Shown here piece after piece: positions 355 through 30,653 of a stretch of 64,000 nucleotides of DNA. The first letter of the stretch is position 1. Every line of letters starts with the position of its first letter. The stretch is from Coleophoma eucalyptorum. Lineage: Eukaryota; Ascomycota; Leotiomycetes; Helotiales; Dermateaceae. The stretch covers positions 372,001 to 436,000 of the forward strand of contig JALRME010000020.1 of the NCBI GenBank assembly GCA_026120035.1, written 5' to 3'. A program made the position numbers and the translations under genes. The notes below the pieces were generated by a model. The model did no database searches, was not told the DNA's origin, and saw only the letters and a program-made list of their open reading frames with translations.

Positions 355-2814
355 ATGTCTTCTGACCCCTGTTTCTACAACGACGATGTTGACAGCATTA
401 GGGAGGCCGAGTATCCTATGCTCAAAGGTATGATTCATGGCCAACTGCAAGGGCGACCGGCGTGTTGAAACATTGGAATAGGAGCAACGTATCTAGACCA
501 CTCAGGCACTACCTTGTATGCGAAGTCTCTGGTACAGAAATTCGCCACATCCATGATTACGGACCTGTATGGCAATCCGCACTCTGGCTCATCGTCGTCA
601 ATACTTGCAACTAAGCGGATTGATGATGTACGATTGCGGGCATTGCAATTCGTGAATGCTGACCCGGAAGAATTCGACCTTGTGTTTGTGCCTAATGCCA
701 CCGCTGCTATCAAATTGGTTGCGGAGGGCTTTTGTGCAGAGAATGGGTTTCACTATGCTTATCATCGAGATTCACATACGAGTCTCGTGGGCGTGAGAGA
801 AGTTGCAGTAACCAATCAATGTTACGGGTCTGATGAGATGGTCGAGCAGTGGCTTTCGCAAACAGACCCAAATGGCACGAATGAGATACCAAACCTTTTT
901 GCATACCCAGCTCAATCCAATATGAATGGACGACGCCTTCCATTGAAATGGTCAGCAAAAATAAGGAACTCCAAGAAAAACACTTTCACGTTACTTGATG
1001 CTGCAGCCTTTGTTTCAACTGCCCAATTGGACTTGAGCAACTCCGATGATGCACCAGACTTTACCGCCTTTAGCTTCTACAAGATCTTCGGCTTTCCGGA
1101 CTTGGGGGCATTGATAGTGAAAAGGTCATCTGCGCATATGTTAACTCGTAGGAAGTACTTTGGTGGTGGAACTGTTGAAATGGTTTCATGTCTTCAAGAC
1201 AATTGGCATGCCACAAAGGATCAATCAGTTCACGAACAGCTTGAGGACGGCACTCTACCCTTTCATAATATCATGGCCCTTGATTCTGCATTTGAAGTCC
1301 ACAAGAACCTATATGGATCTATGGAGCAAATATCGAAGCATACAGCCTACCTAGCAGAAAAGCTATACCAAGGATTGTCAGCACTGCGACATCAAGATGG
1401 TCGAAGAGTCTGCAAAATATACACCGAAAATGAAAGTAACTACCATAAAGGATATCTTCAAGGGCCAGTAGTTGCATTTAATATAAGGAATGCTGATGGT
1501 AAATGGGTTTCCAACGCCGAAGTCGACAAGTTGGCCTCGATTCGGAATATACATCTTAGAACTGGGAATCTCTGCAACCCGGGTGGTATTTCGTACCATC
1601 TAAAATTGAAGACATCTGAGATGAAGGCCAACTTTGCTGCGGGTCAGAGATGTGGAAATGATAATGAAGGCGTATGTGGGAAGCCTACTGGTGTTGTTCG
1701 TGTAAGTTTGGGAGCGATGAGCAACATGAGCGATGTAACAACATTCATCAATTTTATTCGAGAATTCTATATAGAGCAACCGACCGAGCAGGAGGAAATT
1801 AGTCAGAACCCTAGCAGATCGGGACTGTACGTTGAAAGCCTTGTGGTCTATCCTATCAAGAGTTGTGCAGGATGGACTGTTCCGCCAAACGTTGCCTGGG
1901 AAGTCAAAAGGGAAGGATTGCTATGGGACCGTGAATGGTGTTTGGTACATTCTGGAACCGGTCAAGCACTCAGCCAGAAAAGATATCCACGAATGGCACT
2001 CATCAGACCAGAGATAGACCTCAGGGCTGGTGTATTACGAATCCGATTCCACGAACCAAAAAGGACTGACACATCTAGAGAGATATCAGTCTCGCTAAGT
2101 GAAGAACCACAAAGTTCTAAGACACGCACTTCAAATGTTTGCAACGAAAGCGTTCGTGCGTTTCCTTGCAAGTCACAACACATTACAGATTTTTTTACAT
2201 CGGCGTTGGGAGTACCATGTAATCTAGCAAGATTTCCAGCCGGGGGATCAGGTTCAACGACGAGGCATTCAAAAGCGCATCTACAACAGCATCAATTACC
2301 AAGGAAGAGGAGACTGGAGGACGAGACTGGATATTTTTCTACTCCGCCTCCATCACCACCGCCTTCTGATCAAGAAATGATCCCACGGCCCATATTACTC
2401 TCAAACGAAAGTCCCATACTCTGCATCAATCGCGCCTCCCTAGATTTTTTGAATGCTCAAATTCACCAAAAACACGGAAAAGCCGCATCAGCAGCCGTCT
2501 TCCGTGCGAATATCATCGTTGCGGCTTCTACTCCTGCATCTTCAGTACCATATGTGGAGGATTCATGGAAGAATCTCCGGATCGGCACAGAGATCTTTGA
2601 AATGCTAGGAAGTTGTAGGAGGTGCTCCATGGTGTGTGTGGATCAAGAGACGGCGGAAAGAAACGAAGAACCCTTTGTTACTCTGGCTAAGACGAGGAGG
2701 TTCGACAATAAGGTCTTCTTTGGGGAGCATATGTGCCTTTTTTCTAATGGAGTTGGTGGGAAAGCATTTATTAAGATTGGGGATACGGTAGAGGCATTTG
2801 TCAGGGAGGTTTGA
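355..2814 (+). CDS. hxB: Molybdenum cofactor sulfurase (HxB/ABA3 type)
   Basis: Two exons, 355-427 and 482-2814, give 801 aa. The ATG at 355 was chosen because its short first exon (ending MLKG) splices in frame into the conserved ATYLDHSGTT and YGNPHS motifs of the PLP-dependent cysteine-desulfurase-like domain (about residues 20-470). PLP-site context is seen at SFYKIFGFPDLGALIV, where the K is the Schiff-base candidate. A MOSC N-terminal beta-barrel starts near YVESLVVYPIKSC and a MOSC domain fills the C-terminus. In fungi this enzyme transfers a terminal sulfur to the Mo cofactor of xanthine-dehydrogenase-family enzymes and is required for their activity. It sits at the edge of a block whose key enzyme is such a hydroxylase (18423-23148), suggesting dedicated supply. 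A Pro-rich acidic insert (TPPPSPPPSDQ) lies inside the MOSC part. Whether this is the genome's only copy cannot be seen. Confidence 0.93.
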
Positions 2815-3342
2815 GGAGTTTGGCAGTATAAGCTTGGTGTATGAAAATGAAGCATCTATCTATCCATCAAAGATCCGTGCTTCTGTCACAGGCAAACCTT
2901 TATTGTTCGGCCAGTGGAACTGTTGCCACCTCAAAAAATTCACAGCTGCATCAGGGTGTGCTCGCTAAGATGGCCGTCTTCCAGTCCCGGAGAAACCCCT
3001 CCCCCAACTCTAACATTCAGTAGGACGAGTATGCAGGCAAGATAGATAGATAATCCCCACTCTCGACAGCTCATACTTCCAGGGCTCAGATAAGCATCAC
3101 CTCACGCCTGCATGTACGCGGCACGGCGAGCATGATAAACTTTTCCCAACTGTTAGGCTGGTTGTCAATGATTGATTGGCCATCAATCGGTAAGCATTCT
3201 TCTTGCATCTTCTAACTGCATAACTTGGCTGGGAGATTGATGATTTATTTTTCTGTTCTTTTTCCTTCGGATTCATTTGGTCCAAGTTTAATCGGCAATT
3301 GATTTACTGAGACGGATTCTCCAGTGGTCAAAATAAACCACC
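2815..3342. promoter_or_regulatory. Intergenic: hxB 3' end and transporter promoter
   Basis: No gene seen. CCCCACTCT lies at 3055-3063, about 280 nt before the transporter ATG, and an AGATAAG GATA box lies at 3088-3094. Both motif types recur upstream of other genes in the cluster. Function is inferred from recurrence only. Confidence 0.5.
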
Positions 3343-5218
3343 ATGACGGAAATCATCGATGAGAAGAATCTGTCTGTCAAAGACGCCAATGTTGAGGCCG
3401 GGCACGTCAGTGATGCCATTGATCGAAATGCAGAGAGGTCTTACGGTACGTGGTATTCTTCGTTATTTCTCTAGCTCCCATTCCTCGGAAATTGGGATTA
3501 TCATGTGTAGTAGATCGGGAATATTTCGTTGATCAACAAGCTGATGATTGTTTTCTGCAGTTCGCAAATTGGATTTCTATCTTTTGCCTTTCTTGTCGTT
3601 GGTAAGTTTTATTCACCTCGACATCACCAGAAATGGAATAACTTACACAGACCCTAGATGTACTTCTTCAACTCTGTAGACCGAGTAAGCACAACCGTCC
3701 CAAAGAAGATCCGAAGCGAAAGGCAATATTTAACAAAATACAGAGTAATCTCGGAAATGCTAAGACAGACGGCATCGATAAAGACCTACACTTCACTGGC
3801 AATGAATATTCCCTCTTGATCTTGCTGTTCTACGTTCCTTTCGGTCTATGTGACTTACCACTCAATCTTCTTACCAAACTATGGTCCGGAAGAATTACGC
3901 TGCCAACTCGTAAGTTTTCCAGCCTTGGAATGTCAAAATCTTCTCCCCCCCCCAAGTTGCTTATTCTTGACAGTAATGGTTACTTGGGGTGCTTTGGCTC
4001 TCCTTCAATGTGCAGCAAAGAATTTCGCAGGGTTATTGGTCATCCGTATTCTTCTGGGGTATTTATAGCTTCAAGTACCCCCTTGCAGCATTGCCATACT
4101 AATACTGCACAGAGCATGTGAAGCCGGATTCTTCGCTGGTGTAGTCTTCTACATGACGCTCTTCTACACGAGAGGCGAGCTTGGCTTCCGAATCGCCATC
4201 TTTTTCGGATCCGCGCTTCTCGCAGCAGCCTTCTCAGGATTGATTTCCTATGGAGTCTTTCGTATCAAGTCTTCTACCGTGCAGGGATGGATGTGGCTTT
4301 TTATAATTGAGGGTGGCATGACGGTCCTCACTGGCGCTGTGGCATTCTTCTGGTTACCAGGAACGCCTGAGACGGCTTGGTTTTTAAACCAAGACGAGAG
4401 AAAAGCGGCAAAGGCGAGGAGCTTGAGAGATGGTTCCAGGAAAGTTGACGTGGCTTTTAGTATCAAGGAGTCGTTCTCGACATGGAAGAATAAGAGGTTT
4501 TTCGTCTGGATGGTCATTGCGTTTACTTACCCAGTTGCCTTTTCTACGACTTCGAATTTCCTTCCTCAGGTATGCTATTTCTTTTTGTTTGGAGATTTAT
4601 TTTAGAAGAAAGATAGCTAACATTTGATAGATCGTAGCAAGACTCGGATACTCCACCGTCAAGACAAATCTCTGGACGGTTGCACCTAACGCAGTTGGCT
4701 TTGTGATCCTGTTGGTGGTCGCCAAATCCTCCGATTACTTCCGCGAGAGAACATTCCACATTGTCTTCGCACTCTTGGTCTCACTCGTCGGCATGATAAT
4801 CCTCTTTTCAATTGATGTTCTTGCCAACAAAGGACTTGCCTATTTTGCCTGTTTCCTCATGGCCGCTGGTTCGTACACGCCCAGCGTGCTCGTACACTCG
4901 TGGCACAACAACAATAACCTCAACGAAAACTCACGTGCTGCTACTACCGGCTTACTTGTTGGTTTGGGCAATATCGCGGGGATCTTGTCAGCGGCGACTT
5001 TTAGAGTCGAGTATGCTCCTTCTTATAGTCCCACTTTGATTGCAACGAGCGCTTGTAATGTGGTTTGTATCATCTTTGTGCTTGGTCTTGGTGTCTGGAT
5101 GAAGTTGGAGAATCGGAGAAAGAATAGGGAACAGGGCATCTTGCTCAGGGCGGAAGATGTTGACACTGCGGACTTGGTTGACGGAGAATCTTCGCCGAGA
5201 TGGAGGTTCTTTACTTGA
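3343..5218 (+). CDS. hxnP: MFS transporter, anion:cation symporter (Dal5/Tna1-like)
   Basis: Seven exons (3343-3445, 3561-3601, 3658-3684, 3744-3909, 3974-4058, 4113-4569, 4631-5218) give 488 aa. All junctions keep frame and follow GT-AG rules. Motifs typical of the fungal ACS family are visible: LDFYLLPFLSLMYFFNSVDRSNLGNAK split over introns, GIDKDLHFTGNEYSLLI in the first helical repeat, and CEAGFFAGVVFYMTLFYTR. About twelve hydrophobic helices are expected. The family imports organic anions such as allantoate, nicotinate and other carboxylates at the plasma membrane. By position it is the probable importer of nicotinate or a pathway intermediate. The A. nidulans regulon has two MFS genes, hxnP and hxnZ; the symbol given is tentative because homology cannot be resolved here. 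Confidence 0.85.
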
Positions 5219-5640: not shown

Positions 5641-7710
5641 ATGGGAGATACACGGGAAGAGATCCCAGTCTCCACGTGGGAAAGCATCGTGTCGCAAAAG
5701 ATCGCCATCCAGAAATCCGCCATTGCGCCATTTCTCACCAGTGACTTGGATGCATCGAAAATTGAAGCCATCACCGAAATCAGTGATGTTGAAGTTCTGG
5801 CTGAGAAATTGTCTACAGGAGAGTTCAGTGCCGTAGATGTTGTTGGCGCTTATATCAAGAAGTACGTACCATCAACTCCACCGCTTCTGATACGGTTAAG
5901 AGCCGCTGGATTCCTTGAATTAGAGGAATGCTAAGTATAAGGCGAACACAGAGCTGTAGAAGCACATCGAAAAGTAAGTTCTGAATCTTCTCTTCCAGTA
6001 CTGAGCTGATACTCCTGCAAAGACAAACTGCTTGACCGAGGTCCTGTTCAAAGAGGCCATTCAAGCAGCGCAAGAACTAGATGCATACTACAAAGCCAAT
6101 GGCAAGGTTATTGGTCCTTTACACGGTATTCCAATCACGCTAAAAGACCAATTTAATGTCAAGGGCTTTGATACCACGCTTGGGTATGTTGGAAGAGCAT
6201 TCCATCCTGCGGCTGATGATGCAGTCGTGGTGCAGATTCAGAGAAAGTTAGGTGCTGTAGTCATTGCTAAATCGAACTTGCCGCAAAGTATTATGGTAAG
6301 TCAACTTAGTCAGCTTCTTCCTGTCTTCGATCCTGTGCTAAAAATGTTGCAACTCCTGATACTGAAGTTCGAAATAGTGGTGCGAGACGGAAAATCCTCT
6401 CTGGGGACTTACTGTGAATCCAAGAGATCCTAGATTCACGCCTGGTGGGTCCACTGGTGGTGAGGGCGCCCTACTCGCACTGCATGGCTCAATTGTAGGT
6501 TGGGGTACGGATATTGGAGGCTCAATTCGCATTCCAAGTCATATGAACGGGCTGTATGGCTTAAAACCAAGCGTAAGACTATATTCCCCATCGTCCATTC
6601 TTGTTACCGCCATCAAGTCCAATTACTGAAATGTGAAATTTAAAGAGTGCTCGCTTTCCATATCAAGGAATCCCCGTCTCAACCGAGGGACAAGAACATG
6701 TCCCGTCGGCCATTGGACCAATGACTCGAAGTCTTTCGTCAATGACTACTATCACCAAAGCTGTCATCGATGCTGAGCCATGGATGCTTGACCCGAAAGT
6801 ATCACCTATTCCCTGGCGAGACTCGATATACAAAGAGATTCAGTCACGCCCACTAGTAATCGGTATTATGGTTGATGACGGAGTTGTAAAGGTTCATCCA
6901 CCCATCGAAAGAGCCCTGAATGAACTTGCAGAAAAGCTAAAGAATGCGGGCCACGAATTGGTGCACTGGGAACCTTCTCTGCATCAAGAGTGTATAGAAA
7001 TCATGGTACGTGAACTCTCGCCCCGCATTTCATATGTAGAAGTGTCTCGATGGTTCCAAAGATGTCCAAAAGGAGGATTCCCTGACTTAACTTTTGACGT
7101 AGGACAAATACTATACTGCTGATGGTGGCGAGGATATTCGAAGGGCAGTCCAAAGCGGTGGAGAGCCTTTCATTCCACATGTTGAGAGGTTAATCAACAA
7201 AGGCCAGCCGATCTCGGTTTATGAGTACTGGCAACTCAATAAACAAAAGATCGCCGCACAGAAACAATACCTCGACAAATGGAATAGTGTGAAAGGTCCT
7301 GTCTCAGGTCGAGTTGTCGATGTCCTCCTCACTCCAACTATGCCCCACCCTGCCGTGCCACACAAGGGATGTCGGTCAGTTTACTTATCCTTTATTTTGT
7401 TTTCCCCCATTTAATGTGAAGGAATGGTATCTGATGGTTCAACAGATGGGTAGGGTACACCAAGATATGGAACGTGCTAGACTACACAGCTCTTACCTTC
7501 CCCGCGGATAGCGTCTCCCTGATGAAAGATCCTTTACCTGAAACCCGATACGAACCAAGGAGTGAAATAGATGCATGGAACTGGAAGCTTTATGATCCAA
7601 AGTCTATGGAGGGCTACCCCATCGGACTTCAGATCGTCGGAAGAAGGTTCGAGGAGGAGAAGGTTCTCGGCGCTGCAAGGGTTATCGAGGAGGTTTCAAG
7701 AGGACTGTGA
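5641..7710 (+). CDS. hxnN: Amidase-signature hydrolase (HxnN/AmdS-like)
   Basis: Seven exons (5641-5861, 5952-5973, 6023-6295, 6378-6572, 6646-7005, 7103-7374, 7446-7710) give 535 aa, close to fungal acetamidases (about 550). The Ser-cisSer-Lys triad is visible: Lys in HGIPITLKDQFN, and the serine pair in GGSTGGEGALLALHGS followed by GWGTDIGGSIR. The C-terminal WNVLDYTALTFPAD is typical of AmdS relatives. No signal peptide is apparent, so it should be cytosolic. In the A. nidulans nicotinate pathway HxnN is the last step, hydrolysing 2-hydroxyglutaramate to 2-hydroxyglutarate and ammonia. That substrate is inferred here from gene context, not from sequence. It could instead be a general amidase. 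Confidence 0.9.
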
Positions 7711-8300: not shown

Positions 8301-9158
8301 CTACCACTTTGTAACACCTCCATCCAGACACAAGTCTTGCCCAGTCATGTAGAGTGAAGCGTCACTCGCCAAAAATACACAGCCGCCTCGGATATCCTCC
8401 GGCTCGGCCACCCTGCCGTTCATGATCTCATCCTTCCAGCTCTCCAACAGATGCGGAAAGGGTGCAGTCATCTCAGTCCGTACATAACCAGGTGAAATGG
8501 AGTTTACACGAATACCCTATTCCGGCAAGTTAGCTTCAGTTTTCCAAGGGATGTGTTTGCATCGACTCACGTATTTGACCAGCTCAGCAGCAATAGCTGG
8601 GCACATCGCCCTCACCGCACCCTTAGTGCCGCAGTATGCACTGCTCATCTGACTTCTGATCGCCATGTAACTAGCAATGCTGGCTACAAGGATAATGCTA
8701 CCCTTCTTGGTCTGGTTCTCAATCATCTGCTTAGCCGCCAATTGTGCGGTGTAGTAAACCCCCTGGACATTGACGCCCAGTAACTTCTGGAAATCCTCAA
8801 ACTTGGTATCCAAGAAGCCCACGTTGCGGTTGATACCCGCACATGGCACGCAGATATCTAGCTTGCTGTCGAAATCGGCCTTGAAGGCTGCAAAACCGGC
8901 CTCCAGGCTCTCGAGGGAGGATACGTCGACGATGTAGGACTTGGTCTTCACGTTGTACGTACTGCTGATGGCGTGGAAGGCCTCCACAGGTTCGATCACG
9001 TCGAAGATCGCTACATCGGCTCCAGCCTCTGCGAGTCCCTCAGCGAAGGCCAGTCCGCACCCTCGTGCTCCTCCAGTTACGAGGGCGGTGCGGCCTTTGA
9101 GATCAAACTGGATGGGATTAGTATTGTATGTGCCCCATCTTTTGTTTTCTATTCCCAA
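8301..9158 (-). CDS. hxnW: Short-chain dehydrogenase/reductase (HxnW-like)
   Basis: Two exons on the minus strand (9158-8571, 8516-8301) give 267 aa, the normal classical-SDR length. The nucleotide motif TGGARGCG (TGxxxGxG) is near residue 28, the catalytic YxxxK is seen as YCGTK with an upstream serine in VASIAS, and the conserved SPGYVRTEM follows the intron. PCAG replaces the usual NNAG. It resembles mannitol/sorbose-type reductases. In the nicotinate pathway HxnW oxidises a dihydroxypiperidone intermediate to hydroxyglutarimide; assignment to that step rests on context. It is transcribed divergently from the cyclic-imide-hydrolase gene, which would act next, from a 559-nt shared promoter. 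Confidence 0.9.
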
Positions 9159-9717
9159 CTTACTCTGCTGCTCATGGTGGGATAGAAGGATTGTTTACAG
9201 ATGTGGATAGAGTATTAGGCTTACAAAGAGAGAAATATCTTTGTAGAAAGACTAAGTGTGAAATCTAAAGTAATACGATAAAAAGTAGTTGTAGAGAAGG
9301 CTGAGATGCATCTTAATTCGAAAAGACACTTATTTCGCTCCATCCTCGTCCAATTGCTATGACACTATGATCCACCTTTCGGCCTTGTCCTAACATTTCA
9401 TGAGTAAAGAATATAACCAAAGTAAAAGTTGCTCAGAAAAGCATCCCCCACCATTGATAAGATGCTGCAAAAGTGGATTGAAGGCCGCTAGATACGCTGA
9501 TAAGCACCATCCATGTATCACTTTATCTGCTGCTGCTGATTGGCATCCGAGCTTGGAGCGGCAGCTTCCCCTCCTTCTCAGCCTCGCCAACTTTTCTTAT
9601 TGGGTTTTTGTCGCTTTCTTCTGTTTACTTTCTCTCATCATCGTTCCATCTTTCCTACGCAAATACTCACTGTTGGTCACTACTAAATCCAATCAATTAT
9701 CTCAAGCAACTTTCAAA
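9159..9717. promoter_or_regulatory. Divergent promoter hxnW / hxnM
   Basis: Shared upstream region of two consecutive pathway steps. Two strong GATA boxes, TGATAAG at 9455-9461 and 9498-9504, lie within 50 bp. A C-rich box CCCCCACCATTG at 9445-9456 abuts the first GATA and resembles the CCCCCACTCTTG box in the hxnX/hxnY promoter. No gene is seen inside. Confidence 0.5.
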
Positions 9718-10825
9718 ATGGGCAAGAAGCGCGTCCTCTGTACTTATGGTGTCGATATCGACGCTGTGGCCGGTTGGTTAGGATCATATGGTGGAGAAGA
9801 CTCAACGAGCGATATTTCTCGAGGTAAGTTTCCAGACATTAATTCCTGCATGTAGACAGAATACTCATTGTCTAAGGTCTTTGGGCCGGAACCCATGGAA
9901 CCAGGAGACTGCTCAAGCTCTTTGAGAAATATAATATGAAGACCACCTGGTTCATTCCAGGTCATTCTCTGGAGACCTTCCCAGAAGAGTGTGCCATGGT
10001 TCGTGATGCCGGCCACGAGATTGGATTACACGGATACTCGCATGAGAATCCCTCCGATATGACCTTCGAGCAGCAGCGCGATGTTCTGGACAAGACTTAC
10101 AAGATGCTAACTGAGTTCTGCGGCAAACCACCGCGTGGAAGTGTCGCTCCTTGGTGGGAGACTAGTGAAGCTGGTACCGAGCTCCTTCTTAGTTATGGTA
10201 TTGAATACGACCACTCGATGAGCCACGAGGATTGTCAGATGTACTGGCTCCGCACTGGTGATTCTTGGACCAAGATTGATTATTCGAAGGATGCGGAGAG
10301 TTGGATGAAGCCCCTGATTAAGGGAAAGACCACGGGTCTCGTTGAGATCCCTGGAAGTTGGTACATCGATGATCTGCCACCAATGATGTTCATTAAGAAA
10401 TCCGCAAACAGTCACGGTTGGGTAAATCCCCGCGACGTTGAGGATATCTGGAAGGTGAGCTTTGTTTTGCAGCTTTTGGTGTAACTGTGACTGATTGTTC
10501 TTGCTAGGATCACTTCGACTACTTCTACAGAGAGTATGATGAGTTTATTTTCCCAATGACCATTCACCCTGACGTCTCAGGACGTCCGCATGTGTTATTG
10601 ATGCACGAGAGGTGAGCAATATTTGAATATTAGAACAGCAGAGGTTCAAATACTAATGGCGTCTTTGACAGAATCATCGAGCATATCAACAAGCACGAAG
10701 GTGTCGAATGGGTTACAATGGAGCAGATGTGCGATGAGTTCAAGAGCAAGAATACCCCACCAGAAGGCGCAATGATGCCAGCTCCTGCTGGAGAGATCCT
10801 AAAGAAGCAAAAGGCTGAAGAATAG
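9718..10825 (+). CDS. hxnM: Polysaccharide-deacetylase-fold hydrolase, probable cyclic imide hydrolase (HxnM-like)
   Basis: Four exons (9718-9823, 9877-10454, 10508-10611, 10672-10825) give 313 aa. The CE4/HpPgdA-like family pattern is clear: [20 protein letters not shown] near the N-terminus (metal-binding D), [14 protein letters not shown] (two metal-ligand histidines) near residue 96, SVAPWWE, and [18 protein letters not shown] near the end. There is no signal peptide, chitin-binding module or glycan-anchor signal, which argues against a secreted chitin deacetylase. HxnM and bacterial imidases use this fold to open cyclic imides. In the pathway it would hydrolyse 3-hydroxypiperidine-2,6-dione to hydroxyglutaramate, the substrate for the adjacent amidase. 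The reaction is inferred; the fold and family are seen. Confidence 0.9.
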
Positions 10826-11715
10826 TCATAGCTACGTTTTAAATACGTTGCATACCCAGATAGAATACTCACGATACCTGAATTTTGGCAAGTGCAATGA
10901 AAACAAATCTCAATTCCTCATTCTTGTTCATTCCACCATGTCCAAAAAGAAGTGACAAAAACACAAAGCCTCGGCTTAACGAATACCCTGAACATGGGCT
11001 CGTATCCGTTTATTTTCCCATCTGGTTCGTACCTTGCATTGATGCAGAAGCTGGATCCACTACTGAAGAAGGGCATGACACTGATTGCCGCCGACTTGTT
11101 GACAAAGCCCAATGCAAAAGCAGTTGTCATCAAAGCAGCCATCCCCATTTCTGCATCTAAGCGACCGGGGGGTTCTCCCATGGCCGACTGACGGAATCGC
11201 CGCTATGGAGCACGGCCGCCATGTGGAGAAGGGGTCAGTTGCAGGGGTACTGACCAAGAGTGGAGGAGGGGCTTCTGTCCATTCTTCCCCAACGACCATC
11301 TCCCGGCTCAGCCATCATCATCAATCACTCGTTCAGATTCCTCCTCCATTCTCGACATCTGATCTTGAGAGCACGCCACGAGATCATCTTTCCATGAATC
11401 TGACTACGCTGTACCTCTCCTGATCCCAAGTGACAAGGTACAAAATCGGTCGTGCATACAAACCTACTTATCCTAGTTTATCCGTGTCTTATCACTTATC
11501 CATCCCAAGCAACCCCAACTAACGCCGCGAGAAAAGAAATCGCGTGTGTCCAAAGCCGTCATTACCCAAGCACTTCATTGATCTGATTTTCTCAAAGCAA
11601 CTTTTTGGTCGCTCATACCCACCTCAAACAATCCAGGCAAGATCTTGGAGCTTAGAAGGACGGATCCCCTCACCACCGGGTTATGAAGCGTTCCCGATCA
11701 CAAGTCTCGCCCAGA
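10826..11715. promoter_or_regulatory. Intergenic: hxnV promoter
   Basis: An 890-nt region with no credible gene; short frames here do not match known proteins. It carries the 17-bp element TGACCAAGAGTGGAGGA at 11251-11267 that is identical (reverse complement) to one in the hxnS/hxnT promoter. GATA cores lie at 10858-10863 (AGATAG) and 11488-11494 (TGATAAG, minus strand). Confidence 0.55.
11251..11267 (-). promoter_or_regulatory. Shared 17-bp element, hxnV copy
   Basis: TGACCAAGAGTGGAGGA on the plus strand, 449 nt before the hxnV ATG. The reverse complement, TCCTCCACTCTTGGTCA, occurs exactly at 23559-23575 in the hxnS/hxnT promoter. It is read in the same orientation relative to hxnV and hxnS. 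The CCACTCTTG core recurs in the hxnX/hxnY promoter. Confidence 0.55.
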
Positions 11716-16419: not shown

Positions 16420-16569
16420 CAGCTCTAGACTGACGCAATGCAATGCGGTTTCGACGTGGAAGGGAATGGGTGGAGTGGAGGGTGAAGTGCAAGAGGCGAT
16501 GAATCCAGGAAAACAAACCAAGGTAGTGAGTGATAAGCGCCCGGGAGGGGCTGTTGAGCCTAGCTTGCT

Positions 16570-16581: not shown

Positions 16582-16912
16582 TCCACGTTGTTGCCCGATC
16601 CTGATATATCGGACACCCCACTCCCGTCGGTCATCGGCCTTTAGGCTTGCACTCGAATTCCATGCCTTCCGAATCCCCCGCCTTTCCTCAAGACATGGGT
16701 TCCTTGCCATCAAACGATCCTTATCGTCCACTTATGTGCATCAGATCATTATATTTCTGTTCCGTTGCAAAAACACCACGAGGGTTTGTATATACCAGCT
16801 TGGAATCTGTATGCTGTCGTGCACAAACAACGAACAACAAACATCAGCACATGCCCTTCTTGTCCAACCTTCCGTCATCTCTTATCCAAATCAACGTCCA
16901 ATTGCCCTCGCC

Positions 16913-18191
16913 ATGCCAGCAACTGCACCTCCCATTCTTGATTTCTCACGTGAGGTTTGCTTTCATGGAAGGGTTTACAACAGCTAACAGGAAACCATGC
17001 AGCATTCTATGGTACTGATCTCCAAGCAAAACTAAAACTCGTCGAAGATGTGAAGAAGTGCTGTCTACATAATGGTTTTTTCCAGATTGTTGGACATAAC
17101 GTGCCAGCCGAGCTGCAAGAGCGAACAATAAACTGCGTCAAGGAATTCTTCGCACTACCACAAGAGCTAAAGGAGAAAGTTCATAAGAGTATGTCAGCCC
17201 TCAAAGATTCCGAAGCCGACTTAGTACCCGAGACTGATTGGAAAATCGTGCACCATAGATCTGACAACCTGGAACCGAGGCTACGAGAATCTGGGCTCCC
17301 AAATCCTCGAAGCAGGCACGCAACCGGATCAGAAAGAAGGCTTCTACATCGGCGAAGAAATCCCAACCACACACCCTTACTTCACGCAGAAGAAACTCAA
17401 CAGCGGACCTAACCAATGGCCCGTGGGACTTTCCAACCCGTCCGCCTTCCAAAATACGTCTATGGAATACTACAAAGCGATGCACGCCCTCGCACGCGAT
17501 GTTCTCATCGTCCTTGCTCAAACCCTGGGGCTTGACGAGGATTATTTCAACAAAGGCTTCACCAAGGATGCCGTTGCTACGTTGAGATATCTGCATTATC
17601 CACCCCAGCAGAAGGATGGCGACGAGAAGCTCAAGCGGGGCATTGGTGCGCATACGGATTTTGGATCGGTGACGCTGCTGATGCAGGATGAGGTGGATGG
17701 GCTCCAAGTTTGGGAGAAGGAGACGAGCGAATGGCTTGATGTAAGTTTGCTTCTGTTCTCGTCATTTGATCTCCCCCCTCACCCCGCTTCCCTTCCTCCG
17801 TCATCCATTTCTTAAGGAGAAAAAGGGGATGGTACTGATGGCAACACAGGTTGTACCCACAAAAGGCGCCTACGTCGTCAACCTGGGAAACATGTTTATG
17901 CGCTGGTCTAACGACCGCTACATCTCCAATCTCCACCGCGTCATCAACAAATCTGGCAAGGAGCGCTACTCGATCCCCTTCTTCTACAGCGGCAACCCAG
18001 ATTACGTGATCGACTGCTTACCAAACTGCCGCGCGGAGGGTGAGGAGAAGAAATACCCACCCATTACTGTTGAGGGCGCGGTTGGTGGTAGCTATAAAGC
18101 AAGTTACGGCGCTGCTGAGGCATGGAAGAAAGAGTTAGAAGAGAAGAAGACTGGCGGTGCGGAAGTCAAGGTTGAGGCTATTTCTGTTTAG
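16913..18191 (+). CDS. hxnY: 2-oxoglutarate/Fe(II) dioxygenase (HxnY-like)
   Basis: Four exons (16913-16949, 17003-17188, 17259-17740, 17850-18191) give 348 aa. The DIOX_N part has NGFFQIVGHNVP, and the 2OG-FeII_Oxy domain has the iron ligands HTDFGSVTLL (HxD) and the distal His in NLHRVINKSGKERYSIPFF, with the RxS pair binding 2-oxoglutarate. This is the isopenicillin-N-synthase-like group, which includes fungal thymine hydroxylases. HxnY is part of the A. nidulans nicotinate regulon as an accessory hydroxylase whose exact substrate I cannot state. It ends 231 nt from the stop of the molybdo-hydroxylase gene, tail to tail. Confidence 0.9.
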
Positions 18192-18422: not shown

Positions 18423-21400
18423 CTAAGCGACGGCAACAAAGAAATTCTTCTCGCCTTTCGGTTCCACTGTACCCATTCGCAAAAGGTCATCACCGACAGC
18501 GAGCCTCAATTTCTCCGCCGTGGCGGGAGAGTCAAGAGTAAGGTAATCCTCAACACCATTCATCTTCCTAGCCTGGACCAAAGCATCGCGTAGAGCAAAT
18601 AGCACCGTGGCCCCCAGGAACAAAGGAGGCTCACCAGTTCCTTTGGATGATTGAATACTACGCAAACTCTTCCAGCCATCTTTGACCTCTTGTAAAAAAG
18701 TGACATTAAACTCTTGTGGGATATCTGAGAAGCCAGGGATCTTGTATGTACCGGGCCCGCGTGTGAAGAGCTGGCCCGTCTGGGTCCAGAGCGATTCTTC
18801 CATGGTGAACAAGCCTTGGCCTTGTACGAAGGCGCCTTCGATCTGGCCGTAGTCGATTGCTGGATTGATAGAGCGACCAACATCCATTTTGATGTCGGTT
18901 CGTAGGACGGTGTGGTCGCCTGTAAGGAGATCAAGCTCTACTTCGCTGCAGCCGATACCTTGCGTGAAATAGTAATACATCGGTTTCACGGTCTCGATAT
19001 CATAGTTGCCCCAGACATAACCAATCCGAGGCATCTTCCAGAATCCATTCGCAGCCAAGTTCACTCGGTCAATATAGGCTGCGTGTGCAATCGTCTTCAT
19101 GGTAGCTTTTGGCCCGAACTTCTCCCAGTATGGCTTTAGGCGTTCGTTAAGTTGGTCGCAAGCGTCTTTTACTGCCATGCCATTGAGATCGCTTCCCGAG
19201 GAAGCTGCTGTTGGTGAAGCATTTGCTGTGTGGTATGAAGCTGTATCTTGTGTGAAAATTGCATCAATAGGTACTTTGAGTTCTTGGGCTGCAACCTGGC
19301 ACATTTTTGTATAAAGACCTGCTTTAAGTTAGTATCGTTGATAGCTCACAGCATGAGAGTCTGCATTACCTTGGCCCATTTCTGTGCCTCCATGATGAAG
19401 CAAAACACTTCCATCAGCGAAGATCTTTACACTAGCAGCAGCTTGATTCAGGTGAAGAGCAGTAGCAAAGCTCAAACCAAATTTGACAGGAAGCATCGCC
19501 ATACCGCGCTTCTTCCACCTATTTTTGGTATTGAAGTCCGCTATCTGGGCCTTTCTCTCTTCATAATTGCACTGCTCCTTCAACTCCTCGAAGATTTGGG
19601 GAATATGCCAATCAACATCAATCTTTTGTAAGAACGGTGTAACATCACCCTCCTTGTAGAGATTCTTGATTCGTAAATCATCTACAGAAATTCCAAGACC
19701 TTCGGCAACGGCTGTCATGTAGCTTTCAGCAATGAACATAGCTTGTGGTCCACCAAAACCTCGGAAAGCAGTATTGCTGTGAATATTTGTCTTGCAAACA
19801 TGTCCTCGTATGTGAACGTGTGGAATCTCGTAACTTCCATCCACATGTGTACAGCAGCGATCCATGACTGCTCCTGACATGTCGTAGCTGTATCCAGCAT
19901 TGTCATATATATCTGCATCAAATGCTACCAGTTTTCCATCGTTCATCACCCCGACTTTCCAGCGTGCCTGCACAGGGTGGCGTTGTCCAGAGGTCATCAT
20001 ATCTTCATCACGGTTGAGCATCATGCGGACTGGTCGCTTCTCTTTCTTGGCTGCAATAGCACAGAGTGATGCAATAGGAACACTTCGAGATTCTTTTCCG
20101 CCAAAGGCACCACCCATCCTTTTCACTCTTGCATTAATTCTGTTACTCGGAACTCCAGTGACCTGACTGACAAATTCCTGTGTTTCCATTCTTGGTCTTG
20201 TCAGTAAAACATTATGTGCGAGTGTGTTGAGGTGAGCTTACGTGTTCTGGGTGGATGACCACACTTCCATGTTCCCATCTTCAATATGTGGAATTACTAA
20301 TGCTGCGTTCGTTTCCAAGTAGAAGTGCTCCTGACCGCCCATTCTCGTGGTACCCTCAAAAATCCTGTCGCACTTCTCAAAAGCCTCGTCAATCGATCCT
20401 TTGATAGCACAGCCTTTCCTTAGCTGTCGGCCATGTGCATAGAAACTCTTCGCCTCAATTGCCTCGTCAATCGTCAAGATTGCTGGTAAGTCCTCGTATA
20501 CAATTCGCACAAGCTTGGCAGCTGCTTGTGCTTCAATAGCTGTTTCGGCATAAACCATACCAATGGTTTGTCCGTGAGAGAGCACCTCTCCATCGGCAAA
20601 AAATTGTTCATCTTTCCGGACAGATCCCCAAAGATTTTGCTCCTTGGTGATAGAAGTCTTGTCAAGATAGCCAGCAGCTAGCCCTGGTCCAATTGCTGGG
20701 GCCCAATCGACCTCAATAAGCTTTGCATGTGCTCTAGTTGACAGAACTAAGGCGCCATACAATTCTCTTTCTTGGTGTGGCATATCATCGAGATATTCTG
20801 CCTCGCCAGTATTTTGTTTAAGTGCACTCATATGAGGCACTTGCTTGCCAACTACTCGCTGCTCATAAGGGTTGATGTTGTCTCTAACACCGAAAGAGAT
20901 TCCTCGATGGATTTCGTTTACAAGGTCTTCGTCAACCTCTCCGAGTTCCAATTCCTTAACCACTTCATGCCAAAACCGGAAGAAGAACGACAATGCCAAC
21001 GTCTTACGGTAGGTGGCCATACCTCCCGGAACTCCGAAGTTTAGATCAAAGTCCTGGCAAAGTGCTTCTAATCCTTTGTTAAGTGTTCTTGAATCGTGCC
21101 ATTTCATTCCTTGTAGCGAAGTTTTGGCGTTCTTTGCTTGCGTTGTGAAAGGTGCCATTCCTCCATAGGCAAGGGAGATGTCTGCAACCTTTCCATCGTT
21201 ATCGAGTATGACACGGAAAGCAGCCGTAACAATGGCAATATCATCGTCTTTCCTCTTCGCTTGTTTGTATGCTTTCATCACTACAGCTTCTTCCTTGGCT
21301 GGGATCGGAATTCGTATACTGGTTATGACAGAATCAGCTGGAAGGCTAGTTGTCCTGTAAGAAATGAAGAATGACTCTATTGGCAGAGGAAATTCGCCAC

Positions 21401-23148
21401 CAGAAATGCTCCTTGCTATCACGGTAGCTCCAGCTGCCAAAAGTACCGGGTTCATATCCGAGATAGGTGAAGCTGTTGCCAAGTTACCAGCTAGCGATGC
21501 AGCATTTCGAATTTGCCTTCCAGCGAAATATCGCAGTTGCTTTCTGCAAGCTTCTAAGACCAACCCTCTTCTTCCAAGTTTCTTAGAAAGGTCCTTGCAT
21601 GCATACTCCAGGTCCGTGAGCGGTGTATTGGCTCCAACCACCAACTCGGTCATTGATGCTAGTTCGTCTTCCGACTCAGGAATATGCATATCTGCAAGCT
21701 CTTCGATTTCTGAAACATATACAGAAACTGCAAAGTGTGAGTTCTTGAAGCGGACTTCGACCTGAACTTCACTAGCACCACCAACAAGCTTGATCGAAGG
21801 ATCTAGATCTTTAAGAGCAAGCAATTGCTTCAAAGTTGTTGGACAGATCCAGATCTTTTTCGAATTACCGTAGCATATCGGGGACTTCTGGAACTTCCAT
21901 AACGTCGGAGGGAAAATAAGCTCTGTAGCCGGAATGTATGGCAGAAACTCGAGTTTCAAAGCCCCGTCATTGTTTGCAGGTGGTGGTGCATCGAGAACAG
22001 TTCGTGTTTTTGTACCTTCGCCTTCTGTTCCCACGAGAGGATGTCGGACTCTTGACTTGATTGGTTTCCCATAGGTAGCTCCCGTTACCTTAATCTCTGA
22101 TTCGAGACTCGGGTTACTTGAAGACGAGTCTTCTTCTTGGGAATCAGAATCGGAAGTAACTTCCTCCGATGCGGTTGTGGAACAACTTGAAGCAAGGTCT
22201 GGCTTATCTCGACAACAGCCACCTGGTCTGCCGCATGATTGGGGAGATCTTACAATGTCTTTTGGGGCAACTTCTGATCGGTACGATGTATAATCACCGT
22301 CTTTCGAAGCTACAATATCAATCTTCTCATCTGCTGGCGTTTCCACAATTTTTCCTTTCAGGTCTTCCAGAATGAATGTCTTGGCAGCTTGTAAAATTGG
22401 CTTATATCCGGTGCATCGGCACAGGTTACCATCCAGATGTCCTTCAAGCTCAATATCGCTGGCAGAAAGATTAAATACTTTGTTGATAGGATCATAAGAG
22501 TTTCTGATCAACGCGTATAATGACATGCAAATGCCAGGTGTGCAAAAGCCGCATCTACACATAAGTTAGTAGGTATTCCGTGATGACGAGGACATAGAGA
22601 GAGATTCCGAGAAGTATGATCCTGACCAAATTTCCGAAATATTGGACTTCGAAGGATTGAAAGAGAAGAGCAAAACTTACTGTGATCCATGAAGTTTTGA
22701 TATCCGTTCCTGCAAGGGATGCGGGTATTGAGCATTTCCCAAACCCTCAATAGTGATAAGATGCTTTCCGACAACTTGGACTCCGTATCAGCTTGGACTG
22801 CAATGTTAATCACAGCATACAGAACTCACCACCGACCAGAGGGTACAGGCAGGCATTGACGGCCATATGCCTCAACCGTCCCTTATTCTTTCGGTCAATG
22901 GACTGTAACACGACGGTGCAAGCACCACAACCGCCCTCTCCACAACCTAATTTCGTCCCTTTGGCACCATGCCGTGATCTGATAAAGTCCAGCAGAGTCC
23001 ATTCAGGATTTGGATTTGCAAGCTCAATTCTTGTACCATTCATGAAGAAGTGAAGAGTAGATTCGGTGAATTCGCTTTCAATCAGCGATTGGAGTTTCTC
23101 GAAGACCGATGGCACGGCCGGCTTTCGAGGCGTGAATGGGAGAGCCAT
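18423..23148 (-). CDS. hxnS: Molybdo-flavo-iron-sulfur hydroxylase, xanthine dehydrogenase family (HxnS-like nicotinate hydroxylase)
   Basis: Five exons on the minus strand (23148-22830, 22780-22681, 22554-20242, 20190-19370, 19318-18423) give 1482 aa. In order: plant-type 2Fe-2S (LGCGEGGCGACT), second 2Fe-2S (CGFCTPG, CRCTGYKP), a linker (about 210-310), FAD domain (KLVGGASEVQVEV), and the Mo-cofactor domain with RMGGAFGGKES, NTAFRGFGGPQ and GTGEPPLFLG. Catalytic residues E944, R1054 and E1414 match the xanthine dehydrogenase set, so these residues do not separate HxA from HxnS. The motif reads GGAFGG where canonical enzymes have GGGFGG. Clustering with the full nicotinate gene set makes nicotinate 6-hydroxylation the likely role. 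The linker is unusually long, Cys-rich then Ser/Asp/Glu-rich, which explains the length above the usual 1350-1400. Intron 1's acceptor (22782-22781) is the least certain junction. Confidence 0.92.
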
Positions 23149-24018
23149 GATGAATTGAAAATGATAGTCTCAGCTCCGAAATGAGAGCAGAGGGTGGCAG
23201 GTAAGATGGAATCTGTGCCAGTGAGGCAAAGCTGGCTTCTGCGTAGATTTCTTTTCTTTTTCAATTCGTGCATGTGCGTGCCCAGTGACGAATGACTTCG
23301 GAACTTACGATGTGGCTTTCCTCAACAGCCGGAAGCGACTCACAAAGACAGTTGAGATTCAAGCTCGGATGTTCATCAGAGGGAAAGCACAGAGGTACCG
23401 CAATATCACAGTCACGCGGATCTGTTTCTGACAAATTGCCACCATCCGACTTGTGAGGGAAGAGCGCCAGAGCCTCTATACCATATACAGTGCGATACCA
23501 AGGATGGGGATTTGTGGAGCAGCCGTTGCGATAAGACAGGGTTCTACAGTAGCGCCGATCCTCCACTCTTGGTCATGCCAGGGGCTACCGACAAGAATGG
23601 ACTTCAACGCGCATTAACGTTGACTGAACTTGACTTGACTGCACAGCACTGGACTGCACATGGCTGCAGCATTTTCTATGACAGCGTTAAATTGGGAATC
23701 GATAAATCTCATCGACATGTCTGCCCACCTCTGCAATGCCATGCCATGTCGATAGACACCGAGGCGCAATACTCGACGGCTGTATGTGTCGCCATCGTCA
23801 CACCCTGGTCGGTCCCTGACCTGAGGCAGTTTCCCCTTAGTGGGGTGGAGGGGTACCTCTGCCGTAAGGTACTTAACAATTTTTCTTCTTTGTTTTCTCT
23901 GCTTAAACCCTCTGCTTGCTTCCATTCCTCTATTCCCTCCATATACCCGTCTCCCTTACTGAGACACTTTCAACAACAATCCTTCTCTATTCAGCTCGCA
24001 CTCTCTCTACCCGTCACT
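23149..24018. promoter_or_regulatory. Divergent promoter hxnS / hxnT
   Basis: An 870-nt shared promoter. It holds the 17-bp shared element (23559-23575), AGTGGGG at 23839-23845, and GATA boxes CGATAAG (23529-23535), CGATAAA (23700-23706) and CGATAG (23750-23755). The region before the hxnT start is pyrimidine-rich, as in fungal core promoters. Frames crossing it are not supported as genes. Confidence 0.55.
23559..23575 (+). promoter_or_regulatory. Shared 17-bp element, hxnS/hxnT copy
   Basis: TCCTCCACTCTTGGTCA, 411 nt from the hxnS ATG and 444 nt from the hxnT ATG, identical to the reverse complement of 11251-11267. A GATAAG box lies 24 nt upstream on the plus strand. Confidence 0.55.
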
Positions 24019-25357
24019 ATGGCTTCCAAAGTCTCGTCTTCTGGCTTCAAGGCCTTGGAGGATACCGCCCTTTTCAAGAGCCTCCAACTTGGAGCTTTGA
24101 ACCTTGAGCACAGAATCGTTATGGCTCCTTTGACCCGTATGCGCGCTGTTAAAGAATCCGAGGGTGTTTGGGCTCCAGGAGACCTAAATGTCGAATACTA
24201 TTCGCAACGTGCTAGCAAGGGTGGTTTGATTCTTACGGAGGCCTGTCCCATCAGCCGTTTGGTGAGTTACATCTGGAAAGCAGGAATTCAGAAATGCAGC
24301 TTGCTGATAATCTCATCTCATAGGCTTGTGGTTATCCAGGAGTTCCTGGTATCTTTACACCTGGTCAAAGTGCTGGCTGGAAGCGCGTGACCGATGCTGT
24401 TCACGCAAAGGGTGGATTTATTTACTGCCAACTTTGGCACGTCGGTCGTGCTACAGTCCCATCTCTTCTCGGTGGTCAGGATTGTGTTAGTGCCAGCTCC
24501 ATTCCTTTGGAGGGCAATGCTTTGGACGGAAGCCCATTTGCCAACACTCCACCACATGCTTTGACAATTGAAGAAATTGGTGAGCTCGTCAAGGAGTTTG
24601 CCGCAGCTGCAAAGAGAGCTTTGGAGGCTGGATTTGACGGAGTTGAGATTCACGGGTATGCTGAGCAGACAAATGGTCATGTCCTGATTCATCACTAACT
24701 CTTTCTCTCAGTGCCAACGGTTACCTTCTCGACCAATTCCTTCATGACAACAGCAACGTCCGAACCGATGCTTATGGGGGATCTATTGAGAACAGAAGCC
24801 GATTTCCATTAGAAGTTATCAAGGCCGTGACCGAGGCCGTTGGTGCTGACAAGACTGGCATCAGATTGTCTCCATACAACTACTTCCAAGATACCCGGGA
24901 TTCTAACCCCAATGCTCACTGGGCATACTTGTGCGATCAGATTGCATCCTGCCCCAAAGAGAACCGTTTGTCATATGTGCATATGGTTGAGCCAAGATTC
25001 GATGAGGTCCTGGACGAGGAGGCCAAGATTGCCGCCCTTGCAAGCACAACCAAATCTGATACTAAGGTTCAATCACTCGTTCCATTCCGACAAATCCTTG
25101 CCAAGGCAGATGTCAAGTTCTTGGCTGCAGGCAACTTCAACCGCGACAACTCTGCTCCAAAGGTAGAGGCTGGTGATGCTGATGCTGTTGTCCTTGGCCG
25201 ATGGTTCATCGCCAACCCAGATCTTCCTGCCAGACTTGCTAAGGGTCTTCCATTGAATCCATATGATCGCAACACCTTCTATGGTGCTGACCCACCTCAA
25301 AAGGGTTACACTGACTATCCTTTCTATGAGGCTGCTTCAGTTAATGGCGTAGCTTAA
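24019..25357 (+). CDS. hxnT: Old Yellow Enzyme family ene-reductase (HxnT-like)
   Basis: Three exons (24019-24261, 24324-24655, 24712-25357) give 406 aa. The FMN-barrel landmarks are visible: HRIVMAPLTRMRA near residue 34, FIYCQLWHVGRAT, GFDGVEIHGANGYLLDQFL (substrate-binding His/Asn), RTDAYGGSIENRSRFPLEV and VVLGRWFIANPDLP. OYEs reduce activated C=C bonds with NAD(P)H. In the nicotinate route HxnT reduces a hydroxylated pyridine/piperidine intermediate. A 2-oxopentenoate or secondary-metabolite substrate cannot be excluded from sequence. It shares a promoter with the hydroxylase gene. Confidence 0.92.
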
Positions 25358-25805: not shown

Positions 25806-28800
25806 ATGGCCTCTAGTCAAGCTCAGGCTGAGGCTTCGCCCAATGCCGCAACATCCACCTTGCCGACCACGTCCAAAGGGACACCAAAGAAATATGTTTG
25901 CACATTCAAAGGCTGCACGAAGGCCTTCACCAGATCAGATCATCTACAAAGGCACTCACTAAATCATGGCCCGGGGAAGAGTACTTGTCCAAGGTGTTCT
26001 GTCCATTTCAATCGGCCGGATCTGCTCGGTAAGTCACTATTCAACCGTTCAAGGCAACCGCCCAACTAAGAAGTGCTGTAGATAGACATCTAGCCCGCCA
26101 TCGTCAGAAGGACGAGGAGGCAGGCGGTGAAGGCTTGGGGGTTATGGAGACTCGCAAGAGGATGTGGCGTGATGCAGATGGCAACATCGTCACGAAAAAG
26201 CCTACTCTTCCTCACCACGCTGTTGCACAACAACGGCGAGAGTCAGGGTCTGAAGCTCCAGCGGAGTCAAATACCAACTATGAAATGCCACAAAACTTTG
26301 AACCTTTATCACCTCCTAGGTCTACACTAAGCTCGAACTCAAATTCAAGGATACAGCAACAGCAGCAGCATATACCTACTACCATGGCCCCAATGTCAGA
26401 CGAGCGTTGGGCTGCTGACGGTCTACCAGTGTACAGAAATGATGCCCCAGATATGTGTGACTTCTTAGCAAATTCTTCTTGGGGCTCTCATCAGGCCCAG
26501 CCTGCAATGGCTATGAGTAATGTACCATATGACGATATGTTTAACCCGGACACAGGTATAGTATATATCGTCGTTAGTTGAAGTTCGGTGCTAATGCAAA
26601 CAGCGAGCTCGTTCAATATGCCATTCACTACGATGAATAACTATAATTGGTTATTCGACGTAGACAATATGAGCCAGGACCTACAAAATCGTGCTTACCA
26701 ACAATCACAAGTGCCAAGAAGTTACTCAAACAATGTGAATAGCACATTTACCCACGATCAATATCGGCAGCCATTAACCCAGGAAACGCTTTCGAACAAT
26801 GGTTTATCATTATCCATGAACAGTGGCACATATCAAGCTGCGAATCATTTGTTGTCGATGCAACTTCAGGGTCAAACGTCTAGCGAGTCTATGCTCTCAA
26901 GTTCAACAGCGCCAAGCACGCAAGCACTGTCTCCTGAGGACAATTCCTCCCCAGGGAACTTCTCAGGTCAATATTGCCCGACATCTACCTCTCAGACTTC
27001 AGTATCTGAGTACCAACAATCGGTCAGACCTCCAAACCGTGCTGAGTCTGTCGCAGGTCTTGATCCGCTTCAGGCATTCCGACCAACATCTCGAGTTAGA
27101 AATCTCCCAGTAGTGGACGAGATTTCCCGGAATCAGATCTTGGATTTGATCGCCACAGCCTCACCACGCACGCCCGAAGGAAACCCTATCACCCGCGACC
27201 ATCCTCTACTGTCACTGTCAGCTCTGCAGAACTATTGCGACCTATTTTTCTGTCGCTTCAATGTCTGCTACCCTCTTCTTCACCAACCGACGTTTGAGCC
27301 TTCTCAAGTCGAGACACTACTCCTTTTATCTGTACTTCTGCTCGGAGCTACTTACGGCGATAAAGCTGGTCATCGCTTGGCTGTCTGCATTCATGATGTA
27401 ATGAGAGCTCAGATCTTCCAAAGTGTATCTTTCAAAGCTCAGCCAGAACTTTGGATGCTTCAAACCATTTTACTCGTAGAATGTTTTGGCAAATCCAGAG
27501 CTGGTCAGACTCAACATGACATGTCCCACTTGTTTCACGGATTGCTTATCAAGTAAGTGCCAATGACCCAATCTCTTAACTTTCCCACGGCTTACCATGA
27601 ATAGCTTGATCCGAAGAAGTGACTGCCAGACTGTTCGACAACCAAATTTTGATGAAGAGGGAAATACCGAATTGGAGTCAAATTGGAGACGATTTGTTGA
27701 TGTTGAGCAACGCAAGAGGTAAATTTTTAAATGGCATTGGGAAAACCGCTCTTACTTACACTTTCAGGCTTGCTCTTCTTTGCTTCCTCTGGGATACTCA
27801 ACATGCAGTACTATTTTCTCAATCCCTTTGTATGTCTGCTTTTGAGTTACGAGTCTCACTTCCTTGCAATCCTACAACTTGGGAAGCAGACTCCGCTGAA
27901 GAATGGCGGAAGAACTACAGAAGAGAAATTGACACGTCTTTCTTGTCTGTCTTGAAAGTATATGTCAATCCTGGGTCTGCAACTCCACCACATCATTTGA
28001 ATGCACTATCACGACTTCTTATTCTACATGGATTGATGTCAATATCGTGGGATATGAAGCGACGAGACCAGACAGCACTAGGTGAGCCAAGGATCCAAGC
28101 TTCCAAACCTTTAGCTAACGGCAATAGGTTTCGTGGGAACGGAGGCACAAGATAGACAGATGCGCCTCGCCCATTCTTATGATGCTTGGAAGGCTGACTT
28201 TGACACTTACTGCATGAGCATGAGCATGAATTTAAAAGACAATGCTTCATTAAAGCGAGACTTCACTCAGTTCAGCACAGCCAGTATTGCCATCTACCAC
28301 GCCGCTCACATAATCTTGAACGTGGAGATCCTCGACCTCCAAATATATGCTGGTGCACGCCACATCATAGGGCGCCCAGTAACCCGCGCAGACTACGCTC
28401 GCTCTCGGCGCATGCTCAAGCAATGGGTTAAACCAGGGACGGGTTCTTCCGCAGCTGTCAAAGCTTCTTGGCATGCGGCTCATCTACTGCGCGATGGGAT
28501 TTTGAATCTCGATAATTGGGATGTGAACGACGTTTTCCATTACCCATGGTGTCTGTACTTGGCCACGTTGACCTGCTGGGGATTCCACTTCGCAGGCAGT
28601 GATAAATCGCCGAACCCATCAGATAGCTCTGAGCTCTCACATGCTTCTGGAGATTCGATGCAGCATGATGATATCGTCTGGGATGCACAGGCTGAAATGA
28701 ACGTATTGGTTAGTGGTATGACTAGTGCTACTCCTGAGGACTTATGGAGGATGGTTGGCAAATATCCCACTGGTGGGTTGACGGCCGTTATGGCTAAACA

Positions 28801-28903
28801 CCTCAGCAGTGTCCGATGGGCTGTTGTTCATGAGGGTATGAAGGTCCTTAGAGGTCTTGTTGCTGAACGGAGCATTAATGAGTACGAACGGTTGTTGAGG
28901 TAA
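25806..28903 (+). CDS. hxnR: C2H2 zinc-finger transcription factor with fungal-specific domain (HxnR-like)
   Basis: Six exons (25806-26028, 26082-26555, 26604-27552, 27605-27718, 27768-28081, 28128-28903) give 949 aa. Two tandem C2H2 fingers occupy residues about 30-80 (CTFKGCTKAFTRSDHLQRH and CPRCSVHFNRPDLLDRH, the latter split by intron 1). A Gln/Ser/Asn-rich middle follows, then a Fungal_trans middle-homology region (about 440-800; YCDLFFCRFNVCYPLLHQP is its start signature). The A. nidulans regulator HxnR has this same rare C2H2 plus Fungal_trans build, needs a nicotinate-derived inducer, and acts with the GATA factor AreA. Its place at the cluster end supports the same role. The RSDHLQR helix predicts a GGG-type triplet, matching the recurrent AGTGGGG boxes. 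Confidence 0.92.

Positions 28904-29923: not shown

Positions 29924-30653
<730 letters not shown>

Follow-up and report, generated by a model that had tools for sequence, protein, structure and literature searches.

A contiguous nicotinate utilisation (hxn) gene cluster in Coleophoma eucalyptorum and the second-lineage Moco sulfurase gene linked to it

Does a Moco sulfurase gene that lies at the edge of a nicotinate utilisation (hxn) gene cluster belong with that cluster, and which protein then supplies the sulfurase function in a genome that has a second copy of the gene? In Aspergillus nidulans the question does not arise, where purine and nicotinate use share a single hxB gene. We analysed a window of 64,000 nucleotides from Coleophoma eucalyptorum (contig JALRME010000020.1, positions 372,001 to 436,000 of the forward strand; the coordinates below are those of the window unless another contig is named), in which eleven adjacent genes occupy positions 355-28903: ten of Hxn types and one encoding a full-length Moco sulfurase, termed here hxB2.

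Gene models of all eleven genes were built on GT-AG introns, with HxnW spliced by hand, and the gene content was read directly from them. The sulfurase gene hxB2 (355-2814, forward strand) has two exons (355-427 and 482-2814) and encodes a protein of 801 aa, comprising the desulfurase, MOSC_N and MOSC domains. It is followed on the same strand by the genes of an HxnP-like MFS transporter (3343-5218; 488 aa, seven exons) and of the HxnN amidase (5641-7710; 535 aa, seven exons). The short-chain dehydrogenase (SDR) HxnW is encoded on the reverse strand (8301-9175; 254 aa, three exons), and the next two genes, on the forward strand, encode HxnM, of the CE4-fold cyclic imide hydrolase type (9718-10825; 313 aa), and HxnV, an FAD enzyme of the phenol-2-monooxygenase type (11683-13950; 635 aa). 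Two divergent pairs follow: the FAD monooxygenase HxnX (14477-15978, reverse; 440 aa) with the 2OG-Fe(II) dioxygenase HxnY (16913-18191, forward; 348 aa), and the nicotinate hydroxylase HxnS of the XDH family (18423-23148, reverse; 1480 aa, five exons) with HxnT, of the old yellow enzyme type (24019-25357, forward; 406 aa). The last gene of the block encodes the regulator HxnR, with C2H2 and Fungal_trans domains (25806-28903, forward; 949 aa, six exons). The Pfam domain support for HxnV, HxnX, HxnY and HxnM comes from single exons; the best model for HxnT, an OYE-family reductase, was found in the NCBIfam scan and scored below the model's cut-off; and of the two C2H2 fingers of HxnR, one corresponds to a weak Pfam match below the cut-off and the other was read by eye. 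Together, the gene models and the Pfam and NCBIfam domains bear out the eleven adjacent genes of the types named in the original prediction, and no further gene was seen between them, in agreement with its statement that nothing unrelated interrupts the block.

The flanks have a different content. To the left of the block there is a weak Ecl1-like match, below the Pfam cut-off, and to the right the region 29924-37000 contains a probable secreted xylanase (read by eye) followed by GH31 and GH3 genes, which reads as a small plant-cell-wall gene set. Further along, an amino acid permease gene (43754-45421, reverse strand) adjoins the gene of a DAO-type FAD oxidoreductase (46729-48286, forward strand).

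The proposed match of ten genes to the A. nidulans hxn types (S, T, R, P, Y, X, W, V, M and N) is upheld by both domains and lengths, gene trees having covered HxnS and the sulfurase. The protein lengths and domain positions of the block agree with the A. nidulans table of PMC8478523: for instance, the MFS domain spans residues 46-413 of 488 in the window transporter and 49-417 of 491 in HxnP (table 1), while the amidase domain spans 66-522 of 535 in the window HxnN and 78-531 of 543 in its A. nidulans counterpart. HxnX ends in SRL, a PTS1, and this is the PTS1 described for HxnX (PMC9304392). Sequence comparison with the PDB matched HxnM to HpPgdA (3qbu, E 4.8e-131) and HxnV to a phenol 2-monooxygenase (8r2u) at the top of the list, with 2dkh and 1pn0, the two that PMC9304392 names, coming next. 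For HxnX the top match was a 4-hydroxybenzoate enzyme (8gsm), with 6-hydroxynicotinate 3-monooxygenase (8uiq and 5eow) further down at E values of about 1e-49, and for HxnY it was TraH, with thymine dioxygenase (5c3p) further down at 4.3e-36. The transporter, the single MFS protein encoded in the block, gave zero matches in the PDB, so that length and the position of the domain are what assign it to HxnP rather than to HxnZ. As this transporter is HxnP-like and no HxnZ is encoded within the eleven-gene block, the regulon is incomplete there; the suggestion of a complete nicotinate route thus holds for the enzymes, with every Hxn type of the A. nidulans route present, but not for the regulon as a whole. 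The occurrence of ten matching families in one block excludes chance, and we conclude that it is the nicotinate utilisation (hxn) cluster of a Coleophoma-like Leotiomycete.

The identification of HxnS deserves particular attention, as this protein belongs to the same family as the xanthine dehydrogenase HxA. A profile search of the genome with PF02738 revealed two XDH loci, one in the window and the other on contig 18. The window protein has the motifs FGLSFATALHLNQ and TAASSGSDLNG, and the contig-18 protein has FGISFTALFLNQ and TAASASSDLNG. HxnS is marked by an Ala inserted between Phe and Thr, a His after TAL, and a Ser-Gly pair (PMC5746545). All three marks are seen directly in the window XDH, the first two forming its FATAL/H active-site signature, and both the inserted Ala and the His are missing from the contig-18 XDH. 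Counted by alignment column, the insertion is Ala in 117 and Ser in one of the 120 HxnS matches listed (118/120); of the other two, one has FSAA at this place and the stretch is missing from the other. Judged by these residues, the window XDH is HxnS and the contig-18 XDH is HxA. The signature rules out an HxA identity for the window protein, and a grouping with HxA, which the original prediction had allowed for, is not what these residues indicate.

The activities and regulation that we infer for the block are modelled on A. nidulans. By homology, HxnP would import the substrate and HxnS would convert nicotinate to 6-hydroxynicotinate, from which a peroxisomal HxnX would be expected to produce 2,5-dihydroxypyridine, and HxnV 2,3,6-trihydroxypyridine. 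HxnT (in A. nidulans together with a second enzyme), HxnW and HxnM may account for the reduction, oxidation and opening of the ring, and the predicted HxnN step would yield ammonia and 2-hydroxyglutarate. HxnR, by the same analogy, would turn the hxn genes on via predicted sites of the GHGGGG type.

The promoter regions of the hxn genes and of hxB2 were compared for predicted regulator sites. The sequence GHGGGG, predicted to be the HxnR site in A. nidulans (PMC8478523), occurs in all seven hxn promoter regions (16 sites in 4.6 kb) and in none of the three convergent regions of the block. Its density in positions 28904-64000, coding and intergenic sequence taken together, is 0.74 per kb; when 5000 random sets matched in length were taken from this region, none reached 16 sites and four had the motif in all seven pieces. 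The divergent region between hxnX and hxnY (15979-16912) contains five sites, compared to 1.2 expected from shuffles, and the one between hxnS and hxnT (23149-24018) contains two. A point against the motif is that the stretch after hxnR contains three versus 1.0 expected. AreA-type HGATAR sites are clearly above the shuffles only before hxnP (6 versus 1.8). Upstream of hxB2, on the other hand, there are zero canonical GHGGGG sites in 1,029 bp, and the relaxed HxnR sites (6 versus 4.4 expected) are near chance. These counts do not support the idea of hxB2 as an HxnR-driven nicotinate gene, and hxB2 may thus be a neighbour of the regulon and not its member.

What does precede hxB2 is a putative UaY site, the palindrome TCGG-N6-CCGA, which we take to be the UaY consensus. 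It is located at positions 127-140, 228 bp before the ATG of hxB2, and no other perfect copy occurs in the 84 kb covered (the window plus 20 kb upstream). Elsewhere in the genome, one perfect copy lies 241 bp past the first uricase exon that was matched, another lies 502 bp past the match to allantoicase, and a third precedes the first match of one permease by 718 bp; none was found upstream of three other permeases, of HxA (which has two copies with one mismatch) or in the 1,485 bp upstream of the HxB gene on contig 25. The perfect palindrome is therefore present in 4 of the 9 upstream regions examined, with two further PF00860 loci outside this count. The whole genome of 45.26 Mb contains 375 copies, which is below the count of 585 obtained with the reversed control. 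A further UaY-like palindrome was observed on contig 24 (position 2321 of the examined piece), 137 bp before the ATG of a gene for a 557 aa MOSC protein (511-2184 of that piece) with ferredoxin-reductase-like and 2Fe-2S-like parts, both read by eye; this MOSC-ferredoxin reductase is a possible member of the purine regulon.

The ordinary HxB copy on contig 25 (1480-3855 of the examined piece) is a 791-codon open frame. hxB2 keeps the PLP-Lys and Cys motifs of the desulfurase as well as the C-x2-C-x3-C motif of MOSC. The contig-25 protein retains the PLP-Lys and the desulfurase Cys motifs, and neither in it nor, as listed, in its three orthologues is the MOSC domain matched by Pfam. We aligned 208 HxB rows (206 listed matches, the window protein and the contig-25 copy). 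At the three positions of the C-x2-C-x3-C motif, Cys is present in 204, 205 and 204 rows, respectively. The four rows without the motif, in which its loss is seen directly, are the contig-25 copy and the proteins from C. crateriformis, C. cylindrospora and one metagenome, the last of which still has the middle Cys. Compared with two canonical Leotiomycete HxB proteins, the contig-25 protein is 65% identical over the desulfurase part and 27-29% identical over MOSC, versus 70-73% and 71-75%, respectively, for three pairs of canonical HxB. AlphaFold models proved unsuitable as proof of a lost MOSC fold, because the mean block pLDDT of the MOSC end, 50 in the contig-25-type HxB of C. crateriformis versus 60 in hxB2, does not clearly separate the two; a Foldseek search with the same C. 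crateriformis protein returned, among the 50 rows listed, mainly SufS-type cysteine desulfurases. As far as can be told from sequence, the ordinary HxB looks to be decaying in its MOSC half, with the desulfurase half intact. It is not dead, since its frame is still open and orthologues exist. Intragenic complementation shows that the two halves of HxB act independently within the oligomer (PMC9370521), so a remaining role of the decayed protein as a desulfurase partner is conceivable.

The relationship of hxB2 to the ordinary HxB is not that of a recent copy. Its best matches are from Coleophoma crateriformis (89%) and Phlyctema vagabunda (73%), followed by two near 65%, including Xylogone. 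A FastTree calculated for the 208 rows places it in a clade of 17 (the window protein, Coleophoma, Phlyctema, Xylogone, three Lachnellula and ten more), which is recovered at 100/100 in a careful tree of 48 rows, and in neither tree does it group with the Leotiomycete HxB clade. A branch of the 48-row tree, also at 100/100, divides hxB2, Dothideomycetes and Lecanoromycetes from Leotiomycetes (including the contig-25 copy) and Sordariomycetes; hxB2, Leotiomycetes and Sordariomycetes also make up one side of a branch, at 97/96. Of these groupings, only that of hxB2 with Leotiomycete HxB and no others is rejected: it is 61.9 log units worse (p-AU 0.0013, LG+G4), the group having been chosen after the first tree was seen. 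Both sulfurase types are present in C. crateriformis and in Xylogone sp. PMI_703. On the evidence of these trees, hxB2 is a second HxB lineage. The 48-row tree is unrooted, with neither an outgroup nor identifiable Eurotiomycete rows, and we therefore discarded a simple description of hxB2 as the sister of Dothideomycete and Lecanoromycete HxB, which is true only with the root on the Sordariomycete side; if the Dothideomycete-Lecanoromycete branch held the root instead, it would be an old duplicate predating the split of Leotiomycetes and Sordariomycetes. Thus, hxB2 may have arrived by transfer, or it may be an old duplicate that few Leotiomycetes have retained.

The reading that we favour, with good confidence, is that of an hxn cluster with a linked hxB2 that has probably taken over as the working sulfurase, for purine as well as nicotinate use. 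We infer this takeover from the ordinary HxB, which lacks the MOSC cysteine motif and keeps those of the desulfurase, so that hxB2 is probably now the working sulfurase of both pathways and would most likely provide the terminal sulfur for HxnS, and for HxA too. If confirmed, the pairing of a second HxB lineage beside the hxn genes with an ordinary HxB that has lost its MOSC cysteine motif would offer a natural experiment on the replacement of a gene common to two pathways, and on whether the halves of Moco sulfurase can function as separate proteins. The strongest competitor, to which we give appreciable weight although we do not expect it to be correct, is that hxB2 is a housekeeping sulfurase that came to lie beside an ordinary hxn cluster by chance. 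This would agree with its position at the edge of the block and with a promoter in which a UaY-like site is present but canonical HxnR sites are absent, and the distribution of the genes fits as well: Phlyctema, Xylogone and Lachnellula have hxB2 and are not among the 120 HxnS matches listed, and Amylocarpus and Bisporella have a close HxnS together with an ordinary HxB. Because the species lists differ, hxB2 and this type of hxnS do not consistently co-occur, and with different histories their linkage in this genome is secondary or due to chance. A meaningful linkage is nevertheless suggested by the fact that a sulfurase is the sole maturation enzyme needed by HxnS, and that hxB2 lies on the same strand as hxnP, at a distance of 528 bp with no gene between; that precisely a sulfurase gene should be adjacent by chance is unlikely, although with a single genome some probability of it is left.

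We regard as improbable a stronger version of the takeover, in which the ancestral HxB has ceded sulfuration to an hxB2 of foreign or long-separate origin that came to be placed next to the nicotinate genes, and has then shed the half facing Moco and persisted as the desulfurase-only partner in a two-gene, hetero-oligomeric Moco sulfurase. It is also quite unlikely, in our judgement, that hxB2 is a dedicated nicotinate sulfurase that activates HxnS alone, with the contig-25 protein serving HxA: the linkage of hxB2 to the hxn genes, the open frame on contig 25 and its conserved desulfurase half would be in keeping with such a division of labour, but the contig-25 protein has lost the MOSC Cys motif, and it is hxB2, not the contig-25 copy, that is preceded by a UaY-like site. 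Finally, a purine or other pathway with a true xanthine dehydrogenase (HxA), which an XDH family member near a Moco sulfurase gene that is preceded by a UaY-like site might bring to mind, is hardly credible in view of the FATAL/H signature, the separate HxA on contig 18 and the Hxn types of the companion genes.

The window HxnS forms a clade with sequences from C. cylindrospora, Tricladium, Amylocarpus and Bisporella, which joins Chaetothyriales at 100/100, and ten other Leotiomycetes are separate from it. A single Leotiomycete HxnS clade is 139 log units worse and is rejected (p-AU 0.0027) in an analysis that covered 44 of the 122 rows, with HxA left out; when all 122 rows were placed in a FastTree with HxA as the root, the same grouping with Chaetothyriales was obtained, starred 100. 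This grouping suggests a horizontal transfer of hxnS, perhaps with the whole cluster, between Leotiomycetes and Chaetothyriales, which are the groups with described single-locus clusters; old paralogy may be the other account. The HxnS tree thereby adds a candidate transfer that is absent from the available text of PMC8478523.

Comparison with the A. nidulans hxn regulon (clusters 1/VI, 2/VI and 3/I) shows that ten of its eleven gene types are common to both species, with similar protein lengths and domain positions and with the PTS1 of HxnX. The A. nidulans genes are distributed over three loci and include hxnZ, whereas Coleophoma has one locus, with no hxnZ in the block. The Moco sulfurase gene is at the edge of the block in Coleophoma, while hxB of A. 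nidulans is unlinked (PMC5746545) and is under the control of both UaY and HxnR (PMC8478523). One contiguous hxn locus is not new, since single-locus clusters of 11 genes have been described both for Cyphellophora europaea and for a Leotiomycete, Hymenoscyphus repandus (PMC8478523). All three species have a single locus, and the divergent pairs hxnS-hxnT and hxnM-hxnW retained in H. repandus (PMC8478523) are also present in the Coleophoma block, from which hxnZ is absent. The linked Moco sulfurase, in turn, is not among the extra cluster genes in the available main text of PMC8478523, and our literature searches, supplements aside, listed no paper that describes linkage between hxn genes and a Moco sulfurase gene. 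Compared with HxB, ABA3 and Ma-l, hxB2 has the same desulfurase, MOSC_N and MOSC domains and the same conserved motifs; it differs in representing a second HxB lineage inside Leotiomycetes, in a genome whose other copy is without the MOSC Cys motif. The novelty of this locus is not the contiguity of its hxn genes, but the linked sulfurase of a second lineage together with an ordinary HxB that looks to be decaying.
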